Source of the DNA: Gammaproteobacteria bacterium
GTDB lineage: Bacteria > Pseudomonadota > Gammaproteobacteria > Steroidobacterales > Steroidobacteraceae
Assembly (NCBI GenBank): GCA_025358295.1
Contig: JANYJY010000040.1
Coordinates: 1-55,927, forward strand
Length of the DNA stretch: 55,927 bases
Direction of reading: 5' to 3'
Both the position numbers and the translations under genes were made by a program. Of this stretch, positions 23,160 through 29,021 are shown piece by piece; the stretch's first letter is position 1, and each line of letters starts with the position of its first letter. The notes below the pieces were generated by a model, which saw only the letters and a program-made list of their open reading frames with translations, searched no databases and was not told the origin of the DNA.

Positions 23160-24581
23160 TTAAATCGGCACCGGATCGGCGGTTCGCTGCAACGCATTGA
23201 CGGCTGGGATTCTTACCAGAAGATTCGTGCCGCCGGAGGCGGCGCTTTTCACGTCCAGCCGTCCGCCGAGCGCGCGCACCCTGTGGCGCATGGACGCCAG
23301 GCCGTGCGAGCCGATGGCCGTGAGCCGTCCCGCGGGGATGCCTGTGCCGTCATCGGAAATCTGCATGACGATCGCATCTCCGTCCAGGCGCAACGCGAGG
23401 GCCATGGATTTTGCCGCCGAATGCTTCAGGATATTCGTGAAGGCTTCTTGGGCGATGCGGAAAAGGGCGATAGCGGCTTCGGACGTGAATGTCGGCTCTT
23501 CGTCAGGATATGACTCGGTACATTTGAGGCCGGCATTGCCGCAGGTCACTTTCAGCTGCCAGCGCAATGCGGCGAACAGTCCCACGTTGTCCAACAGGGT
23601 AGGCCGAAGTTCCTCGATGATCCGTCGTTTCAAGTCCACTCCGGCGGAGAGATTTTCCTGCACGCGGTGCAGGCGATGCTTGATGTCGGGATCTATGTTG
23701 GCGAGATGCTGTTCCGCCCAGGATATATCCATGCGTGCGCCCACCAACAGTCCGCCGAGCTCATCGTGCAGCTCGCGCGCAAGGCTGGCTTTCTCGCGCT
23801 CAGAGACGTTCTGCAAGTGAGTGGAGAGCTCGACGAGCTCCCGATTGCGCTCCTCCGCCTCCAATTCGAGCTGCTGCTTTTGGTCGCGAAGTTCCGCCGT
23901 CTGCAGCGTGCGGCGGCGCAAGTCCATGTACACCAGCCGCGCGGCGACGCCGACCAGCAGCATGTTGATAATTGTTCCGCCGATGGTGAGCCACCGGCTC
24001 AGCAGCAGGGATTTGGACCAATGCTCCTCTGCGGCGGCGTGCTCAGCGTGTTCGCGTATGCGCAACTGTTCCAGAATGTCGTTGATCGCGTCGCCGGTAT
24101 CCGACCCGACGGTGGTTTTTACCAAGGCGTTGGCGGCAGGGGCTCCTTGGGTATTTTGAATGGCCACCAGCATCGCGAGATCCGCCAGACGCTTGCCGAT
24201 CAACACATGCAGGCTGCGCACTTTCGTCAGATTAGCATCGGAACCCTCGTACGCCAGGCGCAGTTCCTCCAGGCGCGGTTCCACGTCGGCGACATGTTTG
24301 TCATAGCTCTTGTAATATTTCTTATCGCCGGTCAGCAGGAAACCGCGTTGGGTGGCAACCGATCGGGAGACTGCGACCTGCAGATCATCGATCGCATGTT
24401 CGCGCAGCGCAGATTTCTGCAGGCGCTCGCTGGCCTCCTGCAGACGCTGCTGGCCCGCGCCCGTCAGAAAAAACAGGGCAGCCAAAAAGCCTATGATCAG
24501 AAACGGGGGTACCGCGACATACCAACGGCCCAGTCCGTCGAGCGCCTCCCCGAGAATGTTGACCCGATTTGCCATGCTCAT
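23160..24581 (-). CDS. NarL-type sensor histidine kinase with CHASE3 sensor
   Basis: A 473-aa membrane kinase. The first membrane segment is about 24-42 and the second about 195-218. Between them is a CHASE3 domain with QRGFLLTGDKKYYKSY. A coiled coil (225-262) leads to HisKA_3 with ARELHDELGGLLVGARM (His272), then a HATPase domain with FRIAQEAFTNILKHS and DDGTGIP and SHGLASMRHRVRALGG. Kinases of this kind normally pair with LuxR-type response regulators, but none is adjacent. It starts 55 bp after the GGDEF-EAL gene on the same strand. Confidence 0.9.
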   Translation of the reverse strand: MSMANRVNILGEALDGLGRWYVAVPPFLIIGFLAALFFLTGAGQQRLQEASERLQKSALREHAIDDLQVAVSRSVATQRGFLLTGDKKYYKSYDKHVADVEPRLEELRLAYEGSDANLTKVRSLHVLIGKRLADLAMLVAIQNTQGAPAANALVKTTVGSDTGDAINDILEQLRIREHAEHAAAEEHWSKSLLLSRWLTIGGTIINMLLVGVAARLVYMDLRRRTLQTAELRDQKQQLELEAEERNRELVELSTHLQNVSEREKASLARELHDELGGLLVGARMDISWAEQHLANIDPDIKHRLHRVQENLSAGVDLKRRIIEELRPTLLDNVGLFAALRWQLKVTCGNAGLKCTESYPDEEPTFTSEAAIALFRIAQEAFTNILKHSAAKSMALALRLDGDAIVMQISDDGTGIPAGRLTAIGSHGLASMRHRVRALGGRLDVKSAASGGTNLLVRIPAVNALQRTADPVPI

Positions 24582-24636
24582 GCGGATCCACTGTACGCGA
24601 ATTTTCTGTAAACGCGAATGACCTGAACCCCGAGCG

Positions 24637-26967
24637 TCAGTAGATGGCGAGGCTCACCGAATCGGTCAAATCTTCGATCTTAAAATCAACCGGCATCGCA
24701 ATGACCGGAACTCGTTCCTTGCCCTCGAGCCAGGCCTCGAATGCGGCAAGCGGCATGGGTTTTGCGTACAAATAGCCCTGCGCAATATCGCAGCCGAAGC
24801 TGCGCAGGCGTGCGGCCGCTGCTTCAGTTTCGATGCCTTCCGCGACCACCTTGAGTCCCAGGCCATGGCCCATGTCGATGGCCGATCTGACCACGGGTTC
24901 GGTCTCTGGGTCCGACTCCAGACCCTGCACGAAACTACGGTCTATTTTGACTTCATGCACCGGCATGCGAGCCAGGTGACTCAGCGAGGAATAACCCGTA
25001 CCGAAGTCGTCAATCGACAAGCTCACGCCGAGTGCGGCAAGCGCGTCGAGCATGCGCAGCGCACGCGTGGGGTCTTCGATGAAGCCGCTTTCGGTCAGCT
25101 CCAATGTCAGCAGCGCCGGCGGCATTTGATGCCGCGTCAACATGCTGGCTACGCGCGTGTCGAAGCGTTCGTCGCCGATGTCGTCGGCGCTAATGTTGAC
25201 GGCCAATCCGACGGGCTTGCCGGCGCGCTGCCACACGGCGCCTTGTGCGATGGCGTGGTCCAGTGTCCAACGGGTCATCCGTCGGATGAAGCCGGTCTGC
25301 TCGGCGAAAGGAATGAAATCGACGGGGGAGAGCAGCCCGCGTGTGGGATGCTGCCAGCGAAGCAGGACTTCCGCTCCGGTGATGCGACCCGTTTTGAGTT
25401 CGATTTTTGGCTGAAAGAACAGGCGCAGCTCATCGTGTTCCACCGCGCGGCGCAGCTCGCCGAGCAGCGAGAGCTGATCGCGGGCCGCGGGTTTGAATGC
25501 CTCCTCATAAACGGCGAGCGCGCGCTTTTCGCGGCGTGCGTGTTCCAACGCAAGATCGGCGCACCGCATCAGTTCGTCGGTCGAGGCGGATCCTCCTGCG
25601 GCAAGAGCCAACCCCAGGGTCGCGGTAATGTCGATGGGCTGCGCTTCGACGAACACCGGTTCGGCGAGGGCCATGACCAGCGAGGTCCCCCAGGACTGCA
25701 GGTTCGCCGCGTCTTTGAGTCGCGTGAAGGCGGCGAATTGATCGGCCGCGAGCCGCGCCACCGCAGAATGCACCGACGGCACCGCCGCCAGGCGCGCCGC
25801 CATTTTGGTGAGCACGGCATCGCCGACCGAATATCCAAGATGTTCGTTGATGCGCCGAAAGCGGTCCAGATTGATCACGGCGACCGCGACGGGTCCTGCG
25901 TCGGCCACCGCCAGCGCTTCGCTCAGCGCCGCACCGAAGGCCGTGCGGTTCATCAGGCCGGTGAGCGTATCTTCGTAAGCCAGACGACGGATGGATTGGT
26001 CCCGGGATTGAACGGCTGTTTGCATGAGATGCAGACCTTCGGCGAGCACTCCCAGCTCGTCGCTTCGCTGCACGCTTAAGGCCACATCATAGGTTCCGCT
26101 GCGCATTTGATCGACTGCCTTCGTCAAGTCATGCAGCGGCCGGGTGATATTGCGTGCCAGCCAGAAGGCAGCCACGGCCGATGCAACCAGGCTGATGGCG
26201 GCGATCAAGAACAAAACCTTTGTCAGGCGTTCGAACGGCGCGCGTGCGTCCGCCAGAGAGCGCGACAAGATCGCTGCCGCTTGTGAGTTTCCCCACTTGG
26301 ACATTTCGATACGTCGCGTGACCACGTCGGTCTGACTCGTTGCGCCGGCTGGCAGCGTGGTGACCACGTTGGTCCAGCGTCCATCGGAATTCACGGCAAG
26401 CGTCACAGCCAGCCCGGTGATGTCGGCGAGTTCGTGTGCGGCCTTTTGATCGAGTTCAAAGGCCATCGCAATCCACGCCACCGGCAAGGGGCTGCGCACC
26501 GGCACGGTTACCAATTGGTAGATGCGGCCGTTGTCGACCATGAGGCTGGTTGCACCGTCGCCGGCAAGGCTGCTTCTTTGTGCGGACGATACTGGAAACG
26601 GTGTGCCGGCCTTGACGTGCAATCCCGAGGCGGCGATGACATCGCCGTTGAGAGACGTCAGGACCACCAGGGCGGCGCCGATGCGTTCGCCGCTGTTTTG
26701 CAGAACCGACACGAGGGTGTCGGTGTCGCGCGTCGCAACCGCTTCGCGGAAGCCGTAGTCCGAGGCGACGGCCTGCGCGGCCTGGGTCAACTGCCGGCGA
26801 TTGCTTTCCAGCAGGCGCTGAAACACCGAGACGCCGACGTCGAGCTGGCGCTGTACTTCGCGTTCCGCGTTGCCGCGGTTGGTCGCGGACACGGCGCCCA
26901 GGGCCGCAGCCAACACCGCGGCGAGCAGGAGGCTGAAAGTCACGGCAATTCGGGTACGTAGCGTCAC
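24637..26967 (-). CDS. GGDEF-EAL protein with degenerate GGDEF; c-di-GMP phosphodiesterase
   Basis: A 776-aa membrane protein. It has an N-terminal helix (7-27), a periplasmic Cache-like domain (about 30-248), a second helix (250-272) and HAMP (273-325). The GGDEF domain (about 330-490) has AADQF at 407-411 in place of GGDEF, so it should not make c-di-GMP. The EAL domain (about 500-745) keeps catalytic features: EVL at 533, NISADD, ELTES, DDFGTGYSSL at 653, KIDRSFV and VAEGIET. It is therefore likely a phosphodiesterase. It follows the copper-protein gene by 6 bp. Confidence 0.92.
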   Translation of the reverse strand: MTLRTRIAVTFSLLLAAVLAAALGAVSATNRGNAEREVQRQLDVGVSVFQRLLESNRRQLTQAAQAVASDYGFREAVATRDTDTLVSVLQNSGERIGAALVVLTSLNGDVIAASGLHVKAGTPFPVSSAQRSSLAGDGATSLMVDNGRIYQLVTVPVRSPLPVAWIAMAFELDQKAAHELADITGLAVTLAVNSDGRWTNVVTTLPAGATSQTDVVTRRIEMSKWGNSQAAAILSRSLADARAPFERLTKVLFLIAAISLVASAVAAFWLARNITRPLHDLTKAVDQMRSGTYDVALSVQRSDELGVLAEGLHLMQTAVQSRDQSIRRLAYEDTLTGLMNRTAFGAALSEALAVADAGPVAVAVINLDRFRRINEHLGYSVGDAVLTKMAARLAAVPSVHSAVARLAADQFAAFTRLKDAANLQSWGTSLVMALAEPVFVEAQPIDITATLGLALAAGGSASTDELMRCADLALEHARREKRALAVYEEAFKPAARDQLSLLGELRRAVEHDELRLFFQPKIELKTGRITGAEVLLRWQHPTRGLLSPVDFIPFAEQTGFIRRMTRWTLDHAIAQGAVWQRAGKPVGLAVNISADDIGDERFDTRVASMLTRHQMPPALLTLELTESGFIEDPTRALRMLDALAALGVSLSIDDFGTGYSSLSHLARMPVHEVKIDRSFVQGLESDPETEPVVRSAIDMGHGLGLKVVAEGIETEAAAARLRSFGCDIAQGYLYAKPMPLAAFEAWLEGKERVPVIAMPVDFKIEDLTDSVSLAIY

Positions 26968-26973
26968 TGCCGG

Positions 26974-27606
26974 TTACTCGGGCCAACCGACGGCGGTGGG
27001 AGCACTGCTCACGTCGATCTTGACGGGCACCGTCAATGATGCCGCTTGAACAGCGATCTCCTGTGACGGTACGGCGGCGAGCGCATTGGGGTTCCATGTG
27101 CGCAGGCGGTAGCGCCCGGCCGGAAGATTCAACGACGCCGTTCCTGCATCGGTTGTCTTGGCATAATATGGTGAGTCGACTACGCCGACGTACGCGACCA
27201 TGTTGTCGTGAATGTTGCAGCCAAGGACCACGAGACCCGGATGATCGAAGATCACGGGTGTATTAGGCGATCCCGCATACAGCTTGAGCGTAAAAGTCTT
27301 GGCCGGCGAGAATGAATAGACCTGGTGACGGATACGGTCGCTGTTGGGAAAAATGATCGACGTGCCGGTGCGCACCACGCTGACGCGCGGCACGAATCTC
27401 TTGCTGACTTGGTCGATGATTGCTGCGTCATGGCTCGGCGGCGGAGCCGCATCGAGGGGGTCGAACACGACGACGGTATCCCGCGCCGGGGCTCCCGAGG
27501 GGGTCGTGACGTCCACGGTTACCATTCCTGCCGACGCCGCGTGCGCACACAGCGCCGCGAGCACTCCCGCGACAATCCGCCGGCGGCGCTGCACGATGGT
27601 CATCAT
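26974..27606 (-). CDS. Exported cupredoxin-like (methylamine-utilisation-type) protein
   Basis: A 210-aa protein with a signal peptide (about 10-26) and a plastocyanin-like domain. The ligand set of a type-1 copper site is complete: His94 in RIRHQVYSF, then Cys130, His133 and Met136 in GCNIHDNM. The C-terminal part is a beta-sandwich (SLNLPAGRYRLRTWNP). Such proteins are often annotated as methylamine utilisation proteins, but no methylamine genes are here. Its ATG overlaps the haemoglobin stop (ATGA), so the two are co-translated. It probably carries electrons or senses copper or redox state in the periplasm. Confidence 0.85.
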   Translation of the reverse strand: MMTIVQRRRRIVAGVLAALCAHAASAGMVTVDVTTPSGAPARDTVVVFDPLDAAPPPSHDAAIIDQVSKRFVPRVSVVRTGTSIIFPNSDRIRHQVYSFSPAKTFTLKLYAGSPNTPVIFDHPGLVVLGCNIHDNMVAYVGVVDSPYYAKTTDAGTASLNLPAGRYRLRTWNPNALAAVPSQEIAVQAASLTVPVKIDVSSAPTAVGWPE

Positions 27607-28055
27607 GGTGCGATGTGCGCGGGTTCCACCACGTCACGCTTCATGGGAGCGAGCAGGCGCAGCAACTCGTTGGTGGCGCCTTGACTTACATGGCGGGCTT
27701 TCAGCACTTCGCGCAGATCCGCGACCATGCCATAGAATTCCGCTTCCGAAATGTGATGTCCGGCGTGCACTTCCTTCATGGAATCCCCCGAATAGCGGCA
27801 CGGTCCGCCCGCAAGATCGCAGATCTGCTCGGCGAGCAGCTTCTTGATCCGGTCCAATTTGGAATCCTTGAAGCTGCGCCCCAGATCGGGATCCGAACTG
27901 ACTCGGTCAATGAGCGCAGTGGCGATGGCGCTGACTCCGGCCGCACCGCCCAAGCGATCGTAAAGACTGGCCTGCGCGCCCATGGCATTGCCGGCCGCCG
28001 CCCCTATGAAAAGCAGGAGCGCAGAAACCAGCACCCGATATGCGACGGCGGTCAT
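27603..28055 (-). CDS. Group I truncated haemoglobin with signal peptide
   Basis: A protein of about 150 aa. Residues 1-27 from ATG 28055 form a signal peptide ending near AMGA, and a TTG at 28067 is an alternative start. The globin part has the group-I features SLYDRLGGAAGVSAI, FKDSKLDRIKKLLAEQICDLAGGP and MKEVHAGHHIS with the proximal His in VHAG. Members bind O2 or NO with haem. Export to the periplasm is unusual for truncated globins but recurs in this gene pairing. It heads the run globin, cupredoxin, GGDEF-EAL, kinase. Confidence 0.9.
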   Translation of the reverse strand: MTAVAYRVLVSALLLFIGAAAGNAMGAQASLYDRLGGAAGVSAIATALIDRVSSDPDLGRSFKDSKLDRIKKLLAEQICDLAGGPCRYSGDSMKEVHAGHHISEAEFYGMVADLREVLKARHVSQGATNELLRLLAPMKRDVVEPAHIAP

Positions 28056-28154
28056 AAGATGGCCCAATAAAGGCTTAGGTTAAACGGGCTGGGTCCGCGA
28101 GGCTGTGCGCTTGGACACAATATTCCGCAGCCGCGCCCCCTAACCTTGCATGCC

Positions 28155-29021
28155 GTGAAAACACCCATTCATATGGCGTTCGCCCTGGTGGCGGCGGCCG
28201 TCGCACTGACCAATACCATGCCCGCCCAGGCCGGCGATCGGCTCGGGTGGACCGGCGGTGTCACCCAGGTCGAGGGCGCCGCGGGCGGCGGCCTCGTTCC
28301 TTGGGCGCTCATCGGCGGACTGGGTACGGACGCGCAGGTCGGCGCTTCCGGATCTGTGACCTACGTCTCGACCCAGGATTTCTCGCTGCGCTCCGCGGGG
28401 GCGAGCATCGATGTGGCCAATCGGATAGAAATCTCCGTGGCGCGCCAGAGATTCGACGCCGGGTCCGTGGTTTCGGGGTTGACGCTGGGCCAGGACATCG
28501 TCGGGCTGAAGGTCCGGTTGGCCGGCGACGCTGTTTTTGACCCCGACCAATGGCTGCCGCAAATTGCGCTCGGGGCGCAATGGAAGCGGACCCTGGATTT
28601 CGAGGTGATTCCGCGGGCTGTCGGCGCCACGCGCGGCGCGGACGTCGACTGGTACATCGCGGCGACTAAGGTGTATTTTGCTGCGCTCGCGGGGCGCAAT
28701 GTGATCATCGACGCGACGCTGCGCCGTTCCAGCGCCAATCAATTCGGGCTCTTGGGGTTCGGCGGAGACGCCGGTGGATACCGGGTGAACCCGGAGGCCT
28801 CTGCCGCCGTGTGGTTGAACGACGATGTGCTGCTGGGTGCGGAATACCGCCATAAGCCGAACAATTTAAGCGTATTCCGCGAAAACAGCGCCGAAGATTT
28901 GTTTCTCGCCTGGGCGCCGGTGAAGAATGTGGCGCTCACCGCGGCGTGGACCGATCTGGGCTCAGTCGCCGGCAAGCCAGTACAACGGGGCATCTACATT
29001 TCTGTGTGGCTGGGTTATTGA
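28155..29021 (+). CDS. DUF3034-family outer-membrane protein
   Basis: A protein of about 288 aa with a signal peptide and then the DUF3034 signature: LGWTGGVTQVEGAAGGGLVPWALIGG, VEISVARQRFDAG-like strands, WLPQIALGAQWKR, ANQFGLLGFGGD, LLGAEYRHKPNNL and AWAPVKNVALTAAWTDLG. It ends in a short aromatic strand (ISVWLGY) as beta-barrels do. It is divergent from the globin operon over ~100 bp. The frame opens at a TTG at 28146; GTG 28155 gives a better signal peptide, but neither start has a clear ribosome binding site. Confidence 0.8.
   Translation: MKTPIHMAFALVAAAVALTNTMPAQAGDRLGWTGGVTQVEGAAGGGLVPWALIGGLGTDAQVGASGSVTYVSTQDFSLRSAGASIDVANRIEISVARQRFDAGSVVSGLTLGQDIVGLKVRLAGDAVFDPDQWLPQIALGAQWKRTLDFEVIPRAVGATRGADVDWYIAATKVYFAALAGRNVIIDATLRRSSANQFGLLGFGGDAGGYRVNPEASAAVWLNDDVLLGAEYRHKPNNLSVFRENSAEDLFLAWAPVKNVALTAAWTDLGSVAGKPVQRGIYISVWLGY

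Follow-up and report, generated by a model that had tools for sequence, protein, structure and literature searches.

A conserved barrel, globin, cupredoxin and c-di-GMP phosphodiesterase module in Pseudomonadota and its possible role in sensing across the cell envelope

The genes considered here lie together in a 55,927-nucleotide stretch of DNA (contig JANYJY010000040.1 of assembly GCA_025358295.1, from a gammaproteobacterium of the family Steroidobacteraceae), referred to throughout as the window. They encode a DUF3034 protein predicted to form an outer-membrane barrel, an exported group I truncated haemoglobin, an exported type-1 copper protein (cupredoxin) and an inner-membrane phosphodiesterase of cyclic di-GMP (c-di-GMP) with a dCache_3 sensor domain; as a set, they occur in bacteria of many families. 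A CHASE3 histidine kinase gene follows. All five genes named in a first-pass annotation, which had been made from the letters of this DNA alone, were recovered one by one from open reading frames (ORFs) together with Pfam or fold assignments (table 1), and the sensor it had called Cache-like is dCache_3 in Pfam. Its close spacing was likewise verified on coordinates: an ATGA overlap joins the globin stop codon to the cupredoxin start codon, and 6 bp separate the cupredoxin gene from the GGDEF/EAL gene. A further 55 bp lie between the latter and the kinase gene.

Table 1. Positions of genes, domains and key residues at the locus, in window coordinates.
Feature	Position	Strand	Basis or detail
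DUF3034 protein, predicted 12-strand outer-membrane barrel	ORF 28146..29021	+	PF11231, E 9e-94
DUF3034 probable start codon	28155	+	GTG
Spacer between divergent DUF3034 and globin starts, presumed control region	28056..28154		ORF coordinates
Exported group I truncated haemoglobin with Sec-like signal peptide	27603..28055	-	PF01152, E 1.5e-12
Globin haem-site residues	27765..27911	-	B10 Ile49 (27909-27911), E7 Ile70, E11 Leu74
Globin Cys79, Cys86 and proximal His97	27819-27821, 27798-27800, 27765-27767	-	Codons, alignment columns
Exported type-1 copper protein (cupredoxin), amicyanin-like ligand loop C-x2-H-x2-M	26974..27606	-	Fold
Cupredoxin copper ligands His94, Cys130, His133, Met136	27199..27327	-	Codons
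dCache_3-HAMP-GGDEF-EAL, inner-membrane c-di-GMP phosphodiesterase	24637..26967	-	Pfam
dCache_3 periplasmic sensor domain	26320..26862	-	Pfam
Degenerate GGDEF motif AADQF	25735..25749	-	Residues 407-411
CHASE3-HisKA_3 histidine kinase	23160..24581	-	Pfam

The association of these genes was followed in a sample of 398 Pseudomonadota genomes, which was searched with DUF3034, the globin alignment and the cupredoxin alignment; the genome lists compared were transcribed by hand from the separate searches. DUF3034 is present in 39 genomes, and the family globin in all 39 of them, against two (G387 and G213) of the 359 without DUF3034 (Fisher p 5e-52). The globin matches are split by a wide gap in expectation value (E), with 41 genomes at E < 1e-40 and the next match at 1.1e-27. 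A cupredoxin (E < 1e-30) was found in 38 of the 39 DUF3034 genomes and in 15 of the 359 others (Fisher p 1e-39); because the genomes are related, both p-values overstate independence. At all 38 sampled loci outside the window, the globin gene adjoins DUF3034 on the same strand with a gap of at most 185 bp, and within 5 kb of DUF3034 there is a cupredoxin in 32, a dCache-EAL protein in 30 and the complete set of four genes in 29. Co-occurrence and neighbourhood counts together argue that the arrangement is not due to chance, and the survey across genomes strongly favours one conserved module. The first-pass annotation had seen in DUF3034 a divergent neighbour, which holds in the window, but the protein is more than a neighbour: it is a near-obligate partner of the globin.

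Four gene orders are found among relatives. DUF3034 is divergent from globin, cupredoxin and phosphodiesterase genes in the window genus and in Methylophilaceae; DUF3034, globin, cupredoxin and phosphodiesterase follow one another in one direction in Caballeronia, an order for which the annotation of plasmid Lep1P3 reads DUF3034 family protein, group 1 truncated hemoglobin, methylamine utilization protein and EAL domain-containing protein; cupredoxin and phosphodiesterase precede DUF3034 and globin in Pseudomonas and Xanthomonas; and in another class (L096, L102, L113, L115, L116, L118) the cupredoxin-phosphodiesterase pair is divergent from the DUF3034-globin pair. Among 80 named loci, the best 80 of 596 by similarity to the window cupredoxin and thus leaning to near relatives, all four genes with a detected EAL domain are present in 34, dCache in 77 and a dCache-EAL protein in 69; at L247, L275 and L293, a nearby contig end truncates the dCache gene and EAL is not visible. 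Decay was also seen: at L119 (G320) a DUF3034 gene shortened at its start stands beside a whole globin gene, and at L120 (G137:C3) a second DUF3034-globin copy is broken by stops.

A second steady pair consists of the cupredoxin, which proves to be the hub of these neighbourhoods, and dCache. From 165 distinct cupredoxins, the 131 flanked on both sides by 2.6 kb or more were counted and 34 with a shorter flank were dropped. A dCache lies within 3 kb of the cupredoxin in 115 of these 131 loci, 108 of them with EAL, and one of the remaining seven (L039) is a broken copy. Either dCache, or DUF3034 or one of two further presumed outer-membrane families (B and C, described below), or both, are near the cupredoxin in 129 of the 131, the exceptions being L155 and L207. 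Where the dCache partner carries no EAL, Pfam assigns a different output behind dCache_3-HAMP or a related sensor-HAMP: a class III cyclase (Guanylate_cyc; L162, L164, L263, L290, L297), a Ser/Thr kinase (Pkinase; L154), a histidine kinase (L239) or a hybrid histidine kinase (L206, L278). Three of these loci (L162, L164, L263) have less than 2.6 kb on one side and stand outside the 131; dCache_3 was seen by our own profile and not by Pfam at L239 and L206, and its Pfam score at L297 is below the cut-off. The hybrid kinase at L207 has no dCache that could be recognised. Across 118 loci, cupredoxin distances and dCache distances remain correlated after removal of the EAL distances (partial r 0.49, reached by 0 of 2000 permutations). 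Co-location, swapped outputs and co-divergence together indicate a dedicated link between the cupredoxin and a dCache receptor. On the cupredoxin tree (FastTree) the state of the module changes at least 13 times, a rough count in that loci with short flanks may be scored falsely as lacking a gene.

Several of these loci have features of their own. At L082 and L083 (G403, G296), the cupredoxin gene is flanked on both sides by dCache-HAMP-GGDEF-EAL genes. Between the cupredoxin and a HAMP-PAS or PAS hybrid kinase, L206 (G080) has a CCP_MauG di-haem peroxidase and L207 (G111) a short CCP_MauG fragment, each as if replacing the globin.

In the phosphodiesterase, 13 positions of the EAL domain are invariant in 118 of 118 relatives, including E533, N591, E623, D653, D654, K674, E710 and Q730, which we take to have metal-binding or catalytic roles. 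The GGDEF motif of the window protein does not fit the GG[DE]EF pattern of a diguanylate cyclase, and an intact-like [GSA]G[DE][EQ]x is retained in 57 of 123 relatives. Since EAL is intact throughout and GGDEF is degenerate in the window and kept in under half of the relatives, c-di-GMP breakdown is the conserved activity predicted for the family. Within the window genome (97.5% complete), dCache_3 and DUF3034 each have a single match, both at this locus. The earlier suggestion that the Cache-like domain alters c-di-GMP breakdown is in keeping with the intact EAL domain and with the link indicated between cupredoxin and dCache, while the signalling step itself is one that we infer and O2, NO and copper redox state, which it named as signals, are candidates.

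The copper protein of the window has no Pfam or NCBIfam match. Its AlphaFold2 model (predicted local distance difference test, pLDDT, 93.3) has a cupredoxin fold, for which the best Foldseek match is 2ux6, a pseudoazurin with an engineered amicyanin loop (E 3.4e-6), and its sequence profile gives weak matches to copper nitrite reductases (E 8e-5, 9e-4) and to amicyanins (E 0.09 upwards). The four copper ligands, a type-1 set, are invariant in 63 of 63 cupredoxin rows. Fold and ligands thus uphold the annotation as an exported type-1 copper protein, with copper binding as a prediction. The window genome has a second cupredoxin (G000:C39; L038: 8225-9847), 48% identical and located beside a family B protein; dCache was not found within the 17 kb read there. 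Cupredoxin and family B occur together in four genomes of the window genus (G000, G009, G013, G017).

The window globin matches the group I Bac_globin profile PF01152 with 48.2 bits against a cut-off of 21 and also has the proximal histidine; it is predicted to bind haem. The site names used here (B10, E7, E11 and so on) are those we presume for the respective positions, with B10 and E11 located by profile alignment to HbN. Conservation was read from 86 distinct globins (more than 115 bits, more than 105 residues and a locus also containing DUF3034; broken or very divergent ones were left out). Cys79, Cys86 and the proximal His97 (HisF8) are invariant in all 86. The cysteine pair, which was not seen in the solved relatives whose alignments were shown, probably forms a disulphide. 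Position B10 is Leu, Ile, Val or Met in 76 of the 86, E7 and E11 are hydrophobic in every one (Leu, Ile, Val, Phe or, once, Ala), and G8 is Leu, Met or Val in 76. That the family has no TyrB10 was true for the first 51 rows and was overturned by the larger set (Tyr in 7/86). According to passages of PMC4720485, a PheB9-TyrB10 pair is the most conserved distal feature of group I truncated haemoglobins, and the window globin has Leu48-Ile49 instead; the same passages tie hydrophobic globin pockets to fast O2 release and a Tyr/Gln distal pocket to nitric oxide (NO) dioxygenation. A passage of PMC10318465 relays the proposal that hydrophobic pockets with no hydrogen-bond donors assist NO sensors in rejecting O2. 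Read with these sources, the hydrophobic pocket makes a low-affinity O2 site or an NO/CO site likely for most globins of the family.

Export of the globins was called by a home-made rule, and the N-termini of the first globin set were also checked by eye. The rule gives 48 lipobox calls, 37 Sec-like calls and one sequence with no call among the 86 globins, compared with 87 lipobox and 370 Sec-like calls among 1390 unselected neighbour ORFs; the predicted lipoboxes are therefore well above background and the Sec-like signals less so. Both the window globin and its cupredoxin carry predicted export signals, in line with the first-pass annotation. Distant globins (E ~1e-25) at three loci without DUF3034 (L214, L215, L216; G145, G442, G421) have a C-x6-C-x-Y pattern and an export-like start by the same rule, so exported globins with a cysteine pair appear to extend beyond the module. 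In one family-level group (f55), many genomes have two or three truncated globins that match the profile weakly, often side by side.

For DUF3034, whose signal peptide was judged by eye, the AlphaFold2 model (pLDDT 86.4) predicts a barrel of 12 strands. Upstream of strand 1 there is a highly conserved segment, TGG..EG..GGG.VPWA, modelled at low confidence. Foldseek matches comprise KdgM/NanC-type porins, OmpG and other porins, autotransporter barrels and FapF, at template modelling (TM) scores of ~0.3-0.5 on the query, so the model is clear as to a barrel but not as to a specific barrel family. Cupredoxins also adjoin families B (~300 amino acids) and C (~410 amino acids), each homologous within itself, and no similarity was detectable among family B, family C and DUF3034. 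Families B and C are presumed to be outer-membrane barrels from their size, export-like start, C-terminal aromatic end and weak matches to Phenol_MetA_deg or OMP_b-brl in two B members; a Pfam scan of five other B or C members gave no match. One copy of family B was found in each of six of seven chosen genomes (its query missed the known G292 member), every one directly beside a cupredoxin. Family C has one copy in each of eight of nine, six of the eight directly beside a cupredoxin; in G066 and G293, its gene lies ~2.5 kb from the cupredoxin with the phosphodiesterase between. As the genomes were chosen for their known cupredoxin loci, this nearness is partly by choice, and the new fact is that no second copy was found.

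The kinase proved to be a local addition rather than a part of the sensory module, in which the first-pass annotation had placed it: a profile of the window kinase, of a kind that would miss other kinase types, found the kinase core at none of the 38 sampled DUF3034 loci (L082-L119). The CHASE3 kinase is present at loci of the window genus (L043, L046 and L048, with L220 the same region as L046), and L047 of that genus has the kinase core alone. Kinase cores follow cupredoxin-phosphodiesterase pairs at L236, L280 and L299 and lie further off at L279, so a kinase may join at times. Downstream of the window kinase are a CDP-diacylglycerol pyrophosphatase gene (CDH, PF02611; 22275-23102) and then a Nudix hydrolase gene, both ordinary-looking.

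Computed results comprise the conservation of the module, its export signals, the ligands for copper and haem, the predicted barrel, the intact EAL domain and a cupredoxin-dCache linkage that is independent of output; among them, the two pairs, DUF3034 with globin and cupredoxin with dCache, are the steady elements. The cupredoxin and dCache_3-HAMP keep company whatever the output, and therefore look like a periplasmic partner and its receptor; from the two pairs together, we propose a transenvelope sensing module in which barrel and globin sit at the outer membrane, the cupredoxin carries the signal, dCache reads it and EAL gives the output. DUF3034 would form a small barrel in the outer membrane, with the exported globin, whether Sec-secreted or lipid-anchored, tied to it. 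The haem-bound globin, with its mostly non-polar distal pocket, would meet a gas, or shift its redox state as conditions change at the cell surface, and pass its state to the periplasmic copper protein by electron transfer or contact. The cupredoxin would then dock on dCache_3 as its direct ligand, and a relay through HAMP would set the activity of the EAL phosphodiesterase, so that c-di-GMP is lowered or spared. Physical contacts, electron flow, the identity of the cue and the direction of the effect are what we infer in this scheme, to which we give an even chance of being correct.

Several observations weigh against it, and gene neighbourhood is an indirect form of evidence. At 36 of the 131 cupredoxin loci there is a dCache with neither a globin nor any of the three barrel families, which means that the core pair can do without barrel and globin; conversely, 16 of the 131 have no dCache within 3 kb, including four with DUF3034 and globin. 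Cupredoxin, phosphodiesterase or both are absent in cis from nine of the 38 DUF3034 loci, both of them from five; for G272, G284, G305, G320 and G448, which are among the nine, a cupredoxin-dCache-EAL pair sits elsewhere in the genome, and one DUF3034 genome (G137) has no cupredoxin match at all. The distal pocket is not uniform, with Asn or Gln at B10 in 3/86 globins besides the seven with Tyr. At a 75% threshold dCache has no conserved His, Cys or Met, so that hand-over of copper to this domain is not indicated. A form of the proposal in which NO is the specific cue was rejected: NnrS (PF05940), only one proxy for NO metabolism, is found in 19 of 39 DUF3034 genomes and 190 of 359 others, with no enrichment.

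Three other explanations bear on the same data. The module might serve to take up and sense copper, or a copper-binding compound, with the barrel as importer, the cupredoxin as a copper-binding protein of the periplasm, dCache reading loaded against apo cupredoxin and the globin protecting or reducing the copper. Three mutually dissimilar barrel families serving one cupredoxin family is what would be expected of entry pores, and the dCache-only loci counted above also fit; yet copper uptake leaves the near-obligate tie of globin to DUF3034 unexplained, and type-1 copper sites are sites of electron transfer rather than transport. We consider this explanation unlikely. Less likely again is a periplasmic enzyme, in which the globin and the cupredoxin act as redox partners to detoxify NO, O2 or peroxide, with the phosphodiesterase no more than co-regulated. 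A haem protein and a cupredoxin do stand together, and CCP_MauG sequences adjoin the cupredoxin at L206 and L207, but the aliphatic B10 of most globins (76/86) and the hydrophobic E7 and E11 differ from the Tyr/Gln pocket linked to NO dioxygenation in passages of PMC4720485, the cupredoxin keeps its dCache where no globin is near, and NnrS is not enriched. That DUF3034 is instead a translocator or anchor delivering the globin to the surface, with the cupredoxin-phosphodiesterase pair separate and co-inherited by accident, would suit the near-obligate DUF3034-globin pair that stands alone in cis at 5/38 loci, the FapF match and the repeated changes of module state, but is improbable given the retention of cupredoxin in DUF3034 genomes (38/39 against 15/359) and the joining of the two pairs in several gene orders.

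The sensing module may be one branch of something larger. More tentatively than the module itself, and with the balance somewhat against it, we suggest a widespread class of transenvelope signalling systems with a dedicated barrel (DUF3034 or either of two unnamed families), a moving blue copper messenger in the periplasm, a dCache_3 receptor in the inner membrane and exchangeable outputs, namely c-di-GMP breakdown, cyclic nucleotide synthesis and protein phosphorylation; the DUF3034 branch would add a haem cue from a disulphide globin, and the redox state of copper would carry news of the outside to the cytoplasm. If transenvelope sensing is the right reading, DUF3034 gains a partner and a place, an exported truncated globin takes an unusual part in signalling and the cupredoxin is a signal carrier, not an electron shuttle for an enzyme. 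It would also supply a concrete input candidate for a dCache_3 c-di-GMP phosphodiesterase, and since cyclases and kinases occur in the same arrangement, findings on one receptor would inform many.

Individually, the two exported proteins have known counterparts. The window cupredoxin shares with amicyanin and pseudoazurin the type-1 copper fold and the C-x2-H-x2-M loop, which we take to be the amicyanin spacing, but it is longer, with extra strands and no Pfam match, and its genetic partner is a receptor and not a dehydrogenase. The globin resembles HbN (1idr) in its group I profile match and proximal His; unlike HbN, it is exported and has a family-invariant Cys pair, and it is without TyrB10 and GlnE11. 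Among signalling systems, YfiBNR comprises the OmpA-like outer-membrane lipoprotein YfiB, the periplasmic YfiR and the inner-membrane cyclase YfiN, and it likewise unites an outer-membrane part, a small periplasmic protein and an inner-membrane HAMP c-di-GMP enzyme. Its proteins are different throughout, with no barrel, cupredoxin or globin, and YfiN makes c-di-GMP, whereas in the window enzyme EAL is intact and GGDEF degenerate; the seven window proteins scanned contain no OmpA or YfiR domain, and NCBIfam YfiN scores 105.8 bits against a cut-off of 325. LapD-type receptors are degenerate in both GGDEF and EAL, whereas the EAL here is intact and NCBIfam LapD scores 147.9 bits against a cut-off of 1020. 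Globin-coupled sensors also link a globin to c-di-GMP turnover, with the globin as a domain of the enzyme; here a truncated globin is exported as the product of a separate gene, and Pfam recognises no globin within the phosphodiesterase.

Among the matches listed from the open-access literature, none describes the module, the exported globin or a cupredoxin-receptor pair. The passages of PMC3770913 on truncated haemoglobins of iron oxidisers do not mention the module, and the excerpts that name DUF3034 are irrelevant to it. The main text of the review PMC8846402 contains no occurrence of copper, plastocyanin or azurin. That review, in the passages concerned, describes HmsC and HmsD of Yersinia, where a periplasmic redox-responsive partner acts on a c-di-GMP enzyme that has a periplasmic domain. 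Such a partnership would be common to both cases, although HmsC is a cysteine protein whose target is a cyclase and the window pairs a copper protein with a dCache_3 phosphodiesterase. A member of none of the systems tested, the module nevertheless resembles, in its proposed way of working, those where a c-di-GMP enzyme is gated by a partner in the periplasm.

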